A stretch of 64,000 nucleotides of DNA, taken from the NCBI RefSeq assembly GCF_001368795.1, contig NZ_LN831205.1, positions 23,441 to 87,440 of the forward strand, written 5' to 3'. The DNA is from Paenibacillus ihuae (GTDB lineage Bacteria; Bacillota; Bacilli; Paenibacillales; Paenibacillaceae). This document shows positions 2,450 to 8,394 of the stretch, in pieces. Position 1 is the first letter of the stretch. Each line of letters starts with the position of its first letter. Position numbers and translations under genes: made by a program. The notes below the pieces were generated by a model, which saw only the letters and a list, made by a program, of their open reading frames with translations, searched no databases and was not told the origin of the DNA.

Positions 2450-3856
2450 TTGAACTACACAACCACGATTCGCAGCGAGCTGGAAGATTTCATTGAACGG
2501 GAAGGCTTGAATCTCAGCCAACTGGGCAGGAAGGCAGGCCTGAATGCCGGCACCGTCAGCTCCATTCTGAAAGGGAACAGGATTATGGCGGTTGACCAGC
2601 TGGACAGGATGACTAAGGTACTGGACCTGCCTGAAGGTTATTACTATGAGCAGTATATTCAGGAGTGTATTGTAGAGACCGTCCCGAACTGGCGCCGGAT
2701 CAGGCCGTTCCTTTTCCGCTGTGCGGAGCTGGACAGTCCGGACTGCATCCGCAGGTCAGTGCAGCTGCTGCTCGACAACTTGACCTATTCGCCGCTGCTG
2801 TTTGAAGTTGCTGAAGAGTTTTTTACTGCCGGCAAACATAAGGCCGCTGTTATTCTCTACGAGAGCGTTGCCGCAAGTGAACGAAGGCAGCATTCGGAGC
2901 GGCTGGCCTTTTGCCAGTACCGGCTGTTTACGCTTCGCTTAGGTGATAATCAGGAGCGCAATCTTCAAGCAGCTTTACAATTTGAACCTTTTGTGGACAG
3001 GCTGGATGAAACGGATCAACTCGATGCCTTGAGGGAGTTAGCGAATACATACAAGTCATTACAACGTTGGGATAAGGTTGACGAAATCGCAGAAGAACTA
3101 GGAACTAAAGCCAAGATACAGCTCGAGCTGGTGTCCAAGCCCAGACATAAGAGAGATGAGCCTAAAAAGAAATTGAAGCGGCCACTCTTTGTATATTTGA
3201 CGTTTTCGTATCTGCTGCGAGGCAGCGTTTGTGATGCGAGAGGAGCTTATGAAGAGGCACTTCAATATGCATATAAGTATGTTGACTTAAGCTGGGTTAA
3301 GGATAGGGATGACGAAACCCAAAAGTGGGTTGAACTTTACGAGGGGTGGTCAAAGGCGAATATTTTCGTTTGCAGACTTCTGCTCGGAGAGAAAGATATC
3401 ATTGCTGATTATTTAGCATTCATTGACCAGGATGAGGATGAAATATTAATCGGGATTCTGAATATTGTAAAAGCTGCCAATAGATTTGATTTTAAAATTA
3501 ATCATATTCTGGAGAAATATAAGTCTCGGGTTTTGCATTATGGAACGCTACAACCGGAGTCCATAGGGATATACACGCATCAAATCATAGCTGAGGAGTC
3601 TACGCTATGTTTCTATGAATTAGCCTATTATTATTTATGGAATGGGAATTACTCAGAAGGGTTTACATATCTGTTGTACGGCTTAGTGAAAGCTGATTCT
3701 ATTAATAACGAGCCGCGTATTCTTTCATTTGTGAGATTGTTTGAACGATTCCGGGATTACGCATCATTTGATATACAGCTTGAATACCAAAATTTAATGA
3801 AAAAGGAGATTGGTAAAAATGAAAAGAAAAGTAGCGGCGTTGTTAGTGGTAAGTAG
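2450..3856 (+). CDS. AloR-like RRNPP regulator (HTH plus TPR repeats)
   Basis: This is a probable cytoplasmic peptide-sensing transcription regulator of 468 residues. The start chosen is the TTG at 2450, preceded by AGGGGGTGG; an ATG at 2378 in frame has no site. Residues about 1-65 are an XRE-type helix-turn-helix (LSQLGRKAGLNAGTVSSILK). The remaining 400 residues are a helical, TPR-like array rich in Tyr and Leu, as in AimR, PlcR and NprR. Its 3' end overlaps by 38 bases a gene for a 37-residue exported peptide, the standard layout of RRNPP receptor-signal pairs. In Paenibacillus such AimR-like orphan systems have been named Alo. Assignment to that family rests on architecture and genus, without a database search. 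The target genes are not evident. Confidence 0.78.
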   Translation: MNYTTTIRSELEDFIEREGLNLSQLGRKAGLNAGTVSSILKGNRIMAVDQLDRMTKVLDLPEGYYYEQYIQECIVETVPNWRRIRPFLFRCAELDSPDCIRRSVQLLLDNLTYSPLLFEVAEEFFTAGKHKAAVILYESVAASERRQHSERLAFCQYRLFTLRLGDNQERNLQAALQFEPFVDRLDETDQLDALRELANTYKSLQRWDKVDEIAEELGTKAKIQLELVSKPRHKRDEPKKKLKRPLFVYLTFSYLLRGSVCDARGAYEEALQYAYKYVDLSWVKDRDDETQKWVELYEGWSKANIFVCRLLLGEKDIIADYLAFIDQDEDEILIGILNIVKAANRFDFKINHILEKYKSRVLHYGTLQPESIGIYTHQIIAEESTLCFYELAYYYLWNGNYSEGFTYLLYGLVKADSINNEPRILSFVRLFERFRDYASFDIQLEYQNLMKKEIGKNEKKSSGVVSGK

Positions 3857-3932
3857 TTTGTTATTAGGAGCTGTAATTCCAGGCATATCCCAAGCGATTT
3901 TTGTCCCTTTAAATACACATGGTGGTGCGTAA
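3819..3932 (+). CDS. AloP-like exported signal peptide precursor (37 residues)
   Basis: ATG at 3819 follows AAAGGAG (3802-3808) and opens 37 codons ending TAA at 3930-3932. The precursor begins MKRK, has a hydrophobic core of about 18 residues and a likely signal peptidase site after ISQA (residue 26). The remaining 11 residues, IFVPLNTHGGA, would be released, and the active peptide may be the C-terminal part. It overlaps the regulator gene in another frame, implying co-transcription and possibly translational coupling. A strong terminator follows 32 bases later. By analogy with RRNPP systems, the processed peptide would be re-imported by an oligopeptide permease and bind the regulator. Confidence 0.75.
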   Translation: MKRKVAALLVVSSLLLGAVIPGISQAIFVPLNTHGGA

Positions 3933-3964
3933 TCTGTATGTATTTTGTAGTTTTCGATTTCCCA

Positions 3965-3992
3965 AGACCAGCCCCCCGGCTGGTCTTTTTCT
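3965..3992 (+). terminator. Terminator of the regulator-peptide operon
   Basis: AGACCAGCC (3965-3973) pairs with GGCTGGTCT (3978-3986) around a CCCC loop, followed by a T-rich tract. Confidence 0.9.
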
Positions 3993-4080
3993 TTTCATAA
4001 TTCTTAATATTTATCTGAAAAAAATTTCACGTGGAGAAAGGCATAGTCTTTTACAATACTATAAAAAGGAGGGATAAAAG

Positions 4081-4320
4081 GTGAAAGAATCAGAGATTCT
4101 AAAGCAAGGTATCGAACAAGCCCGGCACAAACTAAATAAACTCGAAGACCAATTTTATCTGGGCCATCCCGCTGTGCTCCATCAGTCGATGGTACTCGAC
4201 GAACTTATAAATGAATACAACCGTCATTACTTCAAGGATTTAATGAGATCCTTGCACAGCAATGAACCTGCGGGCGAGGAGCTATGGCCGGCTCAATCGC
4301 TGCGGCTGCGATATATCTGA
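4081..4320 (+). CDS. Spo0E-like aspartyl-phosphate phosphatase
   Basis: This small protein of 79 residues starts at a GTG, 6-7 bases after AAGGAGGG. Residues about 28-50 match the Spo0E family signature: a HPAVLHQSMVLDELINEY segment with the Ser-x-x-x-Leu-Asp core, predicted to form two helices. Spo0E proteins remove phosphate from Spo0A-P and so delay sporulation. Length and helix layout fit the family, and the short tail after residue 65 is not conserved. Monocistronic as far as can be seen. Which response regulator it acts on cannot be told from sequence. Confidence 0.8.
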   Translation: MKESEILKQGIEQARHKLNKLEDQFYLGHPAVLHQSMVLDELINEYNRHYFKDLMRSLHSNEPAGEELWPAQSLRLRYI

Positions 4321-4755: not shown

Positions 4756-6936
4756 ATGGCACTAAGAAAAATCAAGGAAGAGATAAGCAAGAAGGGGCAG
4801 AAGCCTGAACTGAAGGCAGTGGACGGGGCAGCCATGCTTCCATCTGCGGACCGGTCCAAGGAGAACGCGAAGCCGCTCGTATGGAAGTCGCCGATTGGGG
4901 CAGTCCGTAATATGGGGATTCGCGGCAAGCTGTTTTTGTCTGTAATTTTGTCTGTTGTGGCTATTTTCGTTATTGTAGCGGTAGTAATTTATAGCAATGC
5001 CAAACAGATTATCGTGGACGATCTGCACAGTTCCCTTTCTTACGAGAAGGAGAAAATCAGTGTGAAGGTGGGTGATCTGCTTCAGCCTGCTTCAGACAGC
5101 GTGGAATTGCTGAATGCGAACGCCTATGTCCGCAACTTCATCGCACAGGTGGATTCAGCGGATACGGTCAAGACCACTGAGGGGTACAGTGAATTAATTC
5201 AGACGCTTAACCTGATTAAGGACAGCAACAAGAACCTGCTCAATGTGTATATCGGCCTGGATGCGGTGAATAAGGTCATTACCCAGGATGAGTTCGAGCC
5301 TCCGGCGGACTTCAATATGAAGGAACGCGGCTGGTATGCTACCACGGCCAAGAATAACCGGCTGACGGTGACGGATCCCTACATTGATGCCGGTTCAGGC
5401 AAAATGGTCGTCAGTGTTACAGCGCCGATCCTGAATGACGCCGGCAAGCTGATCGGGGTGGCCGGGGCGGATATCTCAACGGAGCAGATTATACAGGCGC
5501 TGAGCGCTTTTAACTACAAGGGCAGCGGATTTGCCATATTGATCGATAAGACGGGGACGTTTATCTATCATCCCGACACAGATAATATTCTGTTGCAGAA
5601 GATAAGTGATCTTGGAGCTGACTGGAAGGCTGTCGGCGAAAAGATGGTTCAGTGGGGCGCTAATGTGATCCTGACGGATATCGACGGCAAAGCCAGCTAT
5701 GTCTCCTATGCGCCAGCGGTGGACAAACAGTGGTCCGTTGCACTAATGGTTCCCCAGAAGAATGCTGAGAAGGAACTTCAGACGTTTAAGCTGATCTTCT
5801 TCCTGTCCATTATTATTTCTATTGTAGTGATGTTTGTACTGCTCTATTTGGTCTCGGGCAGTATTCTGAAGCAGATTCCCATCCTGACAGCAGCGTTCCA
5901 GAAAGCCATGACGGGGGATCTGTCAGCACGGGCCAGTGTCACGGCCAAAGATGAAATCGGTGTGCTGGCGAAGGGGTTTAACGATATGGTTTCTTCCCAG
6001 CAGAGATTGATTCAGGAAATTAAGCAGAGCTCACACAGTATCTCAGAGGCACTGGACAACACCGAGAAGAATGTATTTGTACTCGACGGGAGTATTTCGG
6101 AAATCTCGGCGATTACCGAGGAGTTGTCGGCCGGGATGCAGCAGACGGCAGCTTCTATGCAGGAAATGAACGCCAGCACGAATGAAATCGAGTCTGCCAT
6201 CAGCGGCATTGCCCGCAAAGCCCAGGAAGGCGCCGAGACGGCCGGACAGATCAATGAACGTGCTGACAAGCTAAAGGAAGCCGCTATCCGGTCCAGGCAG
6301 CAAGCGGATGTGATATACGGGCAGAGCGAGGAGAAGCTGCGCAGTGCGATAGCGCAGGCGGGGTCCATCTCACAGATCACGGCCCTGTCAGGCGCGATTC
6401 TTGAAATTGCCGCGCAGACCAATCTGCTGTCGCTTAATGCCTCCATTGAAGCGGCGAGAGCGGGTGATGCAGGCCGGGGGTTTGCCGTTGTAGCTGAGGA
6501 GATCCGTAAGCTGGCTGAAACTTCACGCACGACTGTTACTGAGATCCAGGACGTAACCGAATCCGTTGTAAGGGCGGTATCCAAGCTCGTGGAGGGTGCG
6601 GAGAGTATGCTGCACTTTATGGACAGCCAGGTACTGAAAGATTACGATTCCATGCAGGAGACAGGACAGCGCTACAGCGAGGATGCCCGGTACATCGATG
6701 AGCTGGTGACGGATTTCAGTGCCACTTCCGAACAGCTTCTCGCCTCTATTCAGAGCATGCTGACAGCGATTGGAGAGACCAGCAGCGCTGCGAACGAAGG
6801 GGCAGAAGGGGCCAGCAGCATTGCTGTCCAAGCGGAGCAGATTATCAGTAAATCGGGTGAGATCGTAACGGAGATGGACGAGATTAAGAATAGCTCGGCA
6901 CTGCTGCAGCAGGCCGTATCCAGATTTAAGGCATAA
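4756..6936 (+). CDS. Methyl-accepting chemotaxis protein (dCache type)
   Basis: This membrane chemoreceptor of 726 residues starts at the ATG at 4756, after AAGGTGGGGA; a GTG at 4744 overlaps that site and is less likely. It has a cytoplasmic lead of about 55 residues, a first membrane helix near 58-82, a periplasm-facing Cache-type sensor domain to about 340, a second helix near 343-366, a HAMP domain, and a long helical signalling domain with the conserved hairpin tip near residue 550 ([19 protein letters not shown]). The tip binds CheA and CheW. The N-terminal extension before the first helix is longer than usual. The ligand is unknown; dCache domains often bind amino acids or organic acids. 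Monocistronic, with a terminator right after. Confidence 0.93.
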
Positions 6937-6956
6937 AGGATTAACGTATTTCGTAT

Positions 6957-6993
6957 ACCAGCTTTGCGCCGGTGGCACAAAGCTGGTTTTTTA
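6957..6993 (+). terminator. Terminator after the chemoreceptor gene
   Basis: ACCAGCTTTG (6957-6966) pairs with CAAAGCTGGT (6978-6987), followed by a T run. Confidence 0.9.
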
Positions 6994-7131
6994 TGGGGTT
7001 ATGTGAATACTTATGTTGTATGTTTGCCTGTTGAGTATTGCCTGGAGAGGACAGTTCTTGATAAAATGTCCTTGGAAGAGTATGTTACAAGAAGCGGAAA
7101 TTATAGATAGAGACAGTGAGGCGAGGAATTG

Positions 7132-8394
7132 ATGAGAGACGGCGAAGACCGGATCGTAGGAATGGAAGATATTGTGCGGGCACACCATGTGCTGCGGGAG
7201 GTAATCGTCCGTACGCCGCTTCAGCTGGATGCGGTGCTGTCAGCCAAGTATGACTGCAATGTATACTTGAAGCGTGAAGATTTGCAGATTGTCCGTTCCT
7301 TCAAGATTCGGGGCGCATACAATATGATTCGCAGCCTGCCTGCTGAAGATAGAGCCAAGGGTATTGTCTGCGCAAGTGCCGGCAACCATGCACAAGGGGT
7401 AGCTTACTCCTGCAAAGCGCTGGGGATTAAAGGGAAAGTCTATATGCCAAGCACGACACCGAACCAGAAGATCAAGCAGGTCCGGCGCTTTGGCGGTGAA
7501 TTTGTGGAGGTTATTCTCAAGGGGGATACCTTTGATGATGCCTATGAAGAGGCCCTTCAGGCATGCGTGGATCATAGCATGACCCTGATTCACCCGTTTG
7601 ATGAACCGCGGATTATCGCCGGTAACGGAACGATTGCTATGGAGGTTATGGAGAGCCTGGACAAGCCGGCGGATTATGTGTTTGTCACCATCGGCGGTGG
7701 CGGTCTGGCAGCAGGCGTAGCCACCTATGTGAAGACCGTAAGTCCTGCGACGAAGGTCATCGGTGTGGAGCCGACAGGGGCAGCTTCCATGAGTGAAGCC
7801 CTGCAATGCGGAGAAGTTGTAACCCTGGCGGAGATTAATAAATTTGTAGATGGGGCTGCCGTGAAGCGTGTCGGCGGATTAACCTATGATATTTGCGCGC
7901 GTCTTTTGGATGATGTGGTCAAAGTGCCTGAGGGCAAGGCGTGCACGACGATTCTGGAGCTGTACAATGAGAATGCAATTGTTGTTGAACCGGCAGGCTC
8001 GCTGCCCATTGCGGCACTCGACATGTACCGGGATCAAATCCGCGGCAAAACAGTGGTCTGCATCGTCAGCGGCGGCAACAATGATATTGACCGGATGCAG
8101 GAAATTAAGGAGCGTTCGCTCATTTATGAAGGACTCAAGCATTACTTCATGATCAACTTCCCGCAGCGTGCCGGTGCGCTGAAGGAGTTCCTGGCCGAAG
8201 TGCTCGGACCTGATGATGACATTACCCGTTTTGAATATACCAAGAAGAATGATAAAGAGAACGGACCGGCGCTTGTCGGGATTGAGCTGTTCCAGCGGGA
8301 AGATTATGAACCGCTCATCGAGCGGATGAAGCAGAAGGGCGTCGATTATACGGAGATTAACAAGGAACCTAATTTATTCAATATGCTGATTTAA
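7132..8394 (+). CDS. ilvA: Threonine ammonia-lyase (threonine dehydratase)
   Basis: This cytoplasmic PLP enzyme of 420 residues deaminates threonine to 2-oxobutanoate, the first step of isoleucine synthesis. The start is the ATG at 7132, five bases after GAGG; the TTG three bases earlier is too close. The PLP lysine is Lys58 in SFKIRG. The phosphate-binding glycine loop (TIGGGGLAAG) and the SGGNND motif are in place. Residues from about 330 form the single ACT-like regulatory domain (HYFMINFPQRAGALKEFL) typical of the shorter Bacillus-type enzymes, which suggests feedback control by isoleucine. Monocistronic, ending at a shared bidirectional terminator. Confidence 0.95.
   Translation: MRDGEDRIVGMEDIVRAHHVLREVIVRTPLQLDAVLSAKYDCNVYLKREDLQIVRSFKIRGAYNMIRSLPAEDRAKGIVCASAGNHAQGVAYSCKALGIKGKVYMPSTTPNQKIKQVRRFGGEFVEVILKGDTFDDAYEEALQACVDHSMTLIHPFDEPRIIAGNGTIAMEVMESLDKPADYVFVTIGGGGLAAGVATYVKTVSPATKVIGVEPTGAASMSEALQCGEVVTLAEINKFVDGAAVKRVGGLTYDICARLLDDVVKVPEGKACTTILELYNENAIVVEPAGSLPIAALDMYRDQIRGKTVVCIVSGGNNDIDRMQEIKERSLIYEGLKHYFMINFPQRAGALKEFLAEVLGPDDDITRFEYTKKNDKENGPALVGIELFQREDYEPLIERMKQKGVDYTEINKEPNLFNMLI

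Follow-up and report, generated by a model that had tools for sequence, protein, structure and literature searches.

The window analysed here, a stretch of 64,000 nucleotides from Paenibacillus ihuae, carries a regulator gene, an overlapping peptide gene and, behind them, a spo0E-like gene. The regulator gene, aloR (2450 to 3856, forward strand), encodes a receptor of 468 residues, described by sequence, profiles and predicted fold as an HTH (about residues 7 to 57) followed by nine TPR-like helix pairs. Its start codon is the TTG at 2450, with the Shine-Dalgarno sequence AGGGGG 5' of it. This start is supported because relatives carry TTG (P. auburnensis) or ATG (P. camerounensis) at the equivalent position. 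A promoter of the form TTGACG-N17-TATATT was placed at 2333 to 2361 on the forward strand by a promoter scan and an alignment of relatives. Taken alone, the scan argues weakly for this site, since six such sites were found in the region and 5.7 were expected; in the alignment, TTGAC and TATATT were kept in 11 of 11 rows (the window and ten relatives). The alignment also revealed a palindrome, TAATATATTA (2364 to 2373, no strand assigned), adjoining the predicted aloR start site. The palindrome is identical in all 11 aligned rows, including the window, and recurs, in the same or a similar form, in part of the wider set. We speculate that it could be a site of aloR autoregulation.

The peptide gene, aloP (3819 to 3932, forward strand), was delimited by sequence and conservation and encodes a pro-peptide of 37 residues, MKRKVAALLVVSSLLLGAVIPGISQAIFVPLNTHGGA, which starts at an ATG and ends in LNTHGGA. 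Its Shine-Dalgarno sequence, AAGGAGA (3803 to 3809, forward strand), was recognized from the sequence and lies inside aloR. The two genes overlap by 38 bases (3819 to 3856) in different frames. The preliminary description had reported an HTH-TPR regulator gene overlapping a peptide gene by 38 bases, and all of its sequence claims check out. Signal peptidase cleavage follows the -3/-1 rule, which was used here to place the aloP cleavage site; export was judged from hydrophobicity together with this rule. A cut after S-Q-A agrees with the rule, so the signal likely ends in SQA and the likely released part is IFVPLNTHGGA, as had been proposed for a signal-bearing 37-mer. By analogy, mature AloP is probably about the C-terminal six residues.

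We compared this pairing with chance using a short-ORF filter that was set after the peptide had been noticed. The filter required 25 to 55 residues, K or R near the start, a hydrophobic core, a Shine-Dalgarno sequence and a start codon placed between -110 and +60 relative to the stop of the preceding ORF. The window has 56 mechanical ORFs with 150 residues or more, and a partner passing the filter was found for one of them, aloR, whose partner is aloP. Dinucleotide shuffles of the region gave such a partner in 11 of 2,000 cases. By this filter, set after the peptide was seen, the pairing exceeds chance. Searches of Pfam and NCBIfam with the peptide gave no match, and PHROGs gave one weak match of unknown function (E 0.16).

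The receptor was modelled with AlphaFold2 on a 12-sequence alignment (pLDDT 84.8, pTM 0.74). The model contains four HTH helices (from residues 7-18 to residues 48-57), a linking helix and then 18 helices, which by our own count form nine TPR-like pairs. The HTH matched HTH_31 (E 0.0013) and HTH_3 (E 0.0022), both under the Pfam cut-offs, and no Pfam HTH or TPR model reached its cut-off on the receptor. PHROG 2439 matched the HTH with an E value of 4.8e-7. The structural matches listed for the model include NprR-NprX (4gpk; Z 16.0, rmsd 8.0, 292 aligned), RapI (4i1a; Z 15.9, rmsd 4.8, 261 aligned), RapH (3q15; Z 15.0, rmsd 5.6, 273 aligned) and PlcR with peptide and DNA (3u3w; Foldseek E 2.5e-3). 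No AimR chain was among the structural matches listed. Generic eukaryotic TPR proteins (LGN) rank above NprR, Rap and PlcR among these matches, and the fold alone therefore names no family. A comparison with the sequences of solved structures gave nothing convincing (best E 0.29); the resemblance to NprR-NprX, PlcR-PapR and Rap-Phr is a structural one, in the TPR part. The receptor is thus predicted to be an HTH joined to a TPR superhelix of the RRNPP(A) type, and peptide binding is likewise predicted, in agreement with the suggestion of a regulator with a peptide-binding type of TPR fold. AloR, as placed in the 2025 structural tree (PMC12700828), has an HTH and nine TPRs and belongs to the same clan as AimR; the receptor model shows the same architecture as the AloR described there. 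The 2022 mBio paper (PMC9765709), in the portion available, goes no further than listing AloR as a possible family member.

Alo systems were described from P. polymyxa ATCC 842, with 16 receptors (Voichek 2020, PMC7425212). In the available text of that study, short ORFs of 32 to 50 residues lie directly downstream of all but three AloR homologues, aloR and aloP form operons, and fragments of 9 of 14 AloP peptides were present in P. polymyxa medium. It also describes AloR13 as activating the adjoining spo0E-like gene and the mature hexamer SHGRGG as shutting this off, by direct control. In the literature on Alo systems at hand, Alo13 is the only system with a tested function. The aloP gene of the window, with 37 residues and an overlapping position, lies inside the range described for Alo (32 to 50 residues, downstream or overlapping). 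As a stand-in for AloR13, against which identity was measured, we used L070, a locus of a polymyxa-like genome, which was taken as the counterpart because its peptide ends in SHGRGG and a Spo0E-like gene follows. The window receptor is 34.3% identical to L070 over 459 residues (4 to 462 of 468 against 1 to 454 of 464), which exceeds the rule for known clusters of RRNPP_detector as given in PMC10075063 (30% identity over 80% coverage). The Alo family proposed in the preliminary description therefore holds, on the basis of similarity to a receptor paired with an AloP13-type peptide.

The window receptor fell into a clade of 22 rows, separate from L070, in a receptor tree whose bootstrap is not fully settled. 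The tree comprised 54 rows, with the truncated receptor L004 left out and with L024, L025, L029, L061 and L067 carrying stops. Because of the 34% identity to L070 and the separate clade, we regard the window receptor as a member of Alo and not as the counterpart of Alo13. The layout is the known one, and the locus is an additional AloR-AloP of the type described in 2020, not a new kind of system. Like the window, AloR13-AloP13-spo0E of P. polymyxa ATCC 842, as described in PMC7425212, combines an HTH-TPR receptor, a peptide gene behind it, an H-G core and a Spo0E-like gene next to it. The window differs in its NTHGGA-type peptide and its distance from L070, and the spo0E promoter of L070 is different by eye. 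When the published AloP13 fragment was searched against 295 genomes of the family, seven weak matches (E up to 1) were obtained; four of the seven loci were translated, and among those four L035 is the only counterpart. Closer to the window are ten paralogues of the polymyxa-like genome G345 (L053, L055, L057, L059, L061, L063, L065 and L067 to L069), whose receptors are 43 to 48% identical to that of the window. The 38-base overlap is shared by 7 of the 10 with ATG and by one more with TTG, and 3 of the 10 have a Spo0E-like motif in the 1.5 kb that follow. Their peptides mostly end in IGGA, VGGA, IGTA or HIGGM, in contrast to HGGA in the window.

AimR-AimP of Bacillus phages also combines an HTH-TPR receptor with an adjacent peptide, and in arbitrium, as summarized in PMC7425212, binding of the peptide lowers aimX, the gene that follows, as in Alo13. 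The locus could in principle be such a pair in a phage remnant, given a weak NCBIfam AimR match in the HTH part and the common clan of AimR and AloR in the published structural tree (PMC12700828). However, the match to lysogeny_AimR scored 20.1 bits, where the cut-off is 70, and is confined to residues 12 to 80, whereas full-length similarity goes to Paenibacillus AloR. The locus also lies in chromosomal synteny between purD and ilvA, beside spo0E. We therefore consider an arbitrium origin extremely improbable.

Conservation was examined with the receptor as query in 100 Paenibacillus genomes, its own included, and 96 of them contained a match (E up to 1e-10). A close relative is P. auburnensis, with a receptor 95% identical. 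In total, 55 distinct receptor loci were compared, mostly the strongest matches of each search; the genus search contributed 30 fetched loci. Eight loci duplicating named records (L006, L007, L013 to L017 and L032) had been removed beforehand, and 12 partial matches (L005, L066 and L073 to L082) stood outside the receptor count. The peptide start lies at the identical offset, giving the 38-base overlap, in 36 of the 55 loci, distant paralogues included. In six it lies elsewhere, and in 13 the strict filter yielded none. A looser filter restored L057 and L060, so that 44 peptides were compared for an HG motif, which was found within the last ten residues of 38. It was missing there in L053, L055, L057, L059, L063 and L065, the last of which has HG further in. 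Eleven of the 55 receptors were counted without an adjoining peptide, suggesting that some AloR may act without a peptide of their own. Among these 11, L064 has a short frame ending in MTHGVGSG, L068 has a TTG-started frame, and L027 and L069 have exported frames at a greater distance.

The released peptide varies among species, with NTHGGA in the window, NVHGGA in P. auburnensis, and GLHGGC and NIHGCL in further relatives. A cysteine at or beside the C-terminal HG core (HGGC, HGCL or HGCA) was seen in L008 to L012 and L044 to L046. Two tandem aloP-like genes follow one receptor in L033 and L051, with peptide ends FNHGEG and FTHGDG in the former and FNHGDG and YTHGEG in the latter.

Across a set of ten from the close clade, to which the window belongs, pN/pS was 0.15 in codons 13 to 24, nearly all of which lie outside the aloR overlap, and 0.49 in the released part. 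The corresponding values in a second group of seven sequences were 0.43 and 0.71. Among the five closest sequences, pN/pS was 0.59 in the aloP frame and 0.80 and 1.21 in the two alternative ones, a modest coding signal, and one of these alternative frames was also stop-free. The modest signal in these five sequences and the weaker constraint on the released part would suit a true AloR relative whose 37-codon frame is no signal, being either not translated at all or translated into a small membrane peptide that does something else. The overlap with aloR, moreover, constrains part of the frame in any case. This alternative is nevertheless very unlikely in view of the low pN/pS in codons 13 to 24, the Shine-Dalgarno sequence, the constant offset that extends to distant paralogues and the HG close to the C-terminus of most peptides, as well as the AloP fragments described from P. 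polymyxa medium (PMC7425212). The same offset and the low pN/pS indicate that the frame at 3819 to 3932 is a conserved coding unit, as the preliminary description had assumed.

Further AloR-like loci were found in the genome of P. ihuae and beyond Paenibacillus chromosomes. In the own genome, contig C4 carries a receptor 42% identical with a peptide ending in MTHGAGG, contig C1 carries a truncated receptor (27% over the aligning part) with a peptide ending in GHGVDH, and contig C2 carries a receptor 33% identical (L003), for which no peptide was found. L003 is followed by a MarR-like regulator gene, identified by eye, and may be an orphan receptor. The AloR-like genes of C4 (L002) and C1 (L004) contain runs of unknown bases flanked by repeated sequence, which are probably assembly gaps. 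On the P. polymyxa plasmid pAP1 (L095), an AloR relative has AbrB-type and Spo0E-type genes in its vicinity. The accompanying peptide frame, which ends in TSQHGEI, is missing from the gene table that lists the receptor; this case shows that peptide genes are easily missed, although the table is known to be incomplete. Two Brevibacillus phages encode distant receptors (28% and 25%). In one of them, SecTim467, the AloR-like gene (28%; L096, 2161 to 3892) has an annotated Spo0E-like gene just upstream. We claim no phage pair, because the short ORF after the SecTim467 receptor has no export signal by eye.

Directly downstream of the pair in the window lies the spo0E-like gene (4081 to 4320, forward strand), with a GTG start and a product of 79 residues that matches Pfam PF09388 (E 3.6e-11; 43.3 bits, cut-off 23). 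This position points to the gene as the probable output of the pair. The preliminary description was therefore correct in reading the locus as an Alo pair but incomplete, since it overlooked this adjacent gene. A Spo0E-like gene lies downstream of all 22 receptors in the clade of the window, 18 of them identified by motif within about 0.4 kb, one (L052) by tblastn and three at about 1.5 kb; two of the 22 receptors (L024 and L025) carry stops and are possibly broken. The three separated cases are L010, L012 and L044, which have about 1.3 kb of extra sequence after aloP. A loss of spo0E in these relatives was ruled out when the gene was found further downstream. In L044 (P. camerounensis), a polysaccharide deacetylase gene, identified by eye, lies on the opposite strand at 6567 to 7766 between aloP and spo0E, and L010 and L012 have sequence behind aloP that can be aligned with this insert. 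The order purD, SEC-C gene, aloR, spo0E, MCP, ilvA (neighbours named by eye) is common to the window, L043 to L046 and L052. L042 has no purD within its stretch, L047 has no MCP match, and the more distant L048 to L051 have none of this gene order.

Between aloP and spo0E, a scan located an intrinsic terminator (3964 to 3987, forward strand), the stem of which is kept in relatives by eye. In the separated loci, about the last 70 bases before spo0E can still be aligned with the undisturbed loci, and the sequence further up cannot. The terminator and this block travelling with the gene indicate that spo0E has its own promoter, with the separation marking its upstream edge. On the same grounds, we rejected spo0E as part of the aloR operon. 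Alignment of the promoter block placed a -10 hexamer, TACAAT, at 4052 to 4057 on the forward strand, with no good -35; the promoter scan listed no site at this position. Across the aligned block, the -10 reads TACAAT or TAAAAT.

This promoter contains an inverted repeat, TGAAAAAAATTTCA (4016 to 4029, no strand assigned), of the form TGAAA-N4-TTTCA, centred 41.5 bases before the predicted spo0E start. The position -41.5 is the classical one for class II activators. Of 20 distinct clade spo0E promoters, 17 have the pattern GAAA-N1..7-TTTC between -40.5 and -42 (19 of 22 rows, two of them duplicates); it is absent in L011, L018 and L025. Nothing like the repeat was seen by eye in L026, and L052 stood outside the set. 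The repeat was also not visible by eye in the paralogous Alo-spo0E promoters printed for comparison. The block has a high AT content, and the repeat came to attention post hoc; in a test made after the sighting, mononucleotide-shuffled blocks gave the N3..5 form at that place in 6 of 20,000 cases and anywhere in 107. With up to two mismatches allowed, the 20-base site was found a single time in the genome of P. ihuae, in front of spo0E. Each of six relatives likewise has one copy where it would be expected downstream of aloR, and three extra two-mismatch sites were found, all in one of the six. The available literature on Alo systems gives no AloR binding site. We predict TGAAA-N4-TTTCA as a candidate AloR operator.

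The pair could be real while spo0E is not its target, or not the main one, with AloR regulating itself, other Alo peptides or distant genes. Relatives share synteny over the whole purD-to-ilvA stretch, and the neighbourhood may therefore be inherited and not functional; the terminator and the greater distance in three clade receptors point the same way. The conserved palindrome at the aloR start site would fit self-regulation, and AloP13 lowered other aloP genes too in P. polymyxa, according to PMC7425212. Against this stand the retention of a Spo0E-like gene downstream of every clade receptor, the promoter block with a repeat at an activator position that is kept despite the separation, and the direct control demonstrated for Alo13 (PMC7425212). 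We regard this alternative as unlikely, though it deserves more weight than the others considered above. Our preferred reading, to which we assign a probability of about 0.75, is that AloR and AloP form a quorum-sensing pair whose output is the Spo0E-like gene. This reading builds on the genes and their conservation, the predicted receptor fold, the presence of the Spo0E-like gene and the promoter block that moves with it.

For the sign of regulation, peptide length, export, import and phenotype, the scheme that we propose for this pair is inferred from Alo13 and the family. The aloR gene and the overlapping aloP would be cotranscribed from the promoter at 2333 to 2361, with transcription ending at the terminator at 3964 to 3987. 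Sec would export AloP, the cut after SQA would release IFVPLNTHGGA, and extracellular trimming would leave a short piece of the C-terminus; the AloP13 hexamer SHGRGG suggests by analogy that this is probably NTHGGA. At high density, an oligopeptide permease would import the peptide, which would then bind AloR in its TPR superhelix. Twelve matches to SBP_bac_5, a family of oligopeptide solute-binding proteins, were found in the genome, of which some may be fragments of a single gene. Peptide-free AloR would sit upstream of spo0E, probably on TGAAA-N4-TTTCA at -41.5, and recruit RNA polymerase to a promoter lacking a good -35. Peptide-bound AloR would release the DNA, so that Spo0E would fall and Spo0A~P would be spared or rise. 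Spo0E is a phosphatase acting on Spo0A in B. subtilis, as stated in PMC7425212, and Spo0A is present in the genome. Spared Spo0A~P might ease entry into sporulation or another Spo0A response. More tentatively, and with somewhat more doubt than belief, the whole clade may be a quorum circuit with one output, in which AloR is a class II activator at a nearly sole genomic site, TGAAA-N4-TTTCA at -41.5, and peptide dialects (NTHGGA, NVHGGA, GLHGGC and NIHGCL) time sporulation per species.

Among the peptide-signalling systems of Paenibacillus, Alo is an established and large group. What the locus described here adds is a neighbouring spo0E, a constant overlap, peptides that vary as dialects and a candidate AloR site. 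A fixed receptor-peptide-spo0E module at one syntenic place, with a candidate receptor site and with peptides that sister species vary by one or a few residues, constitutes a natural test set.
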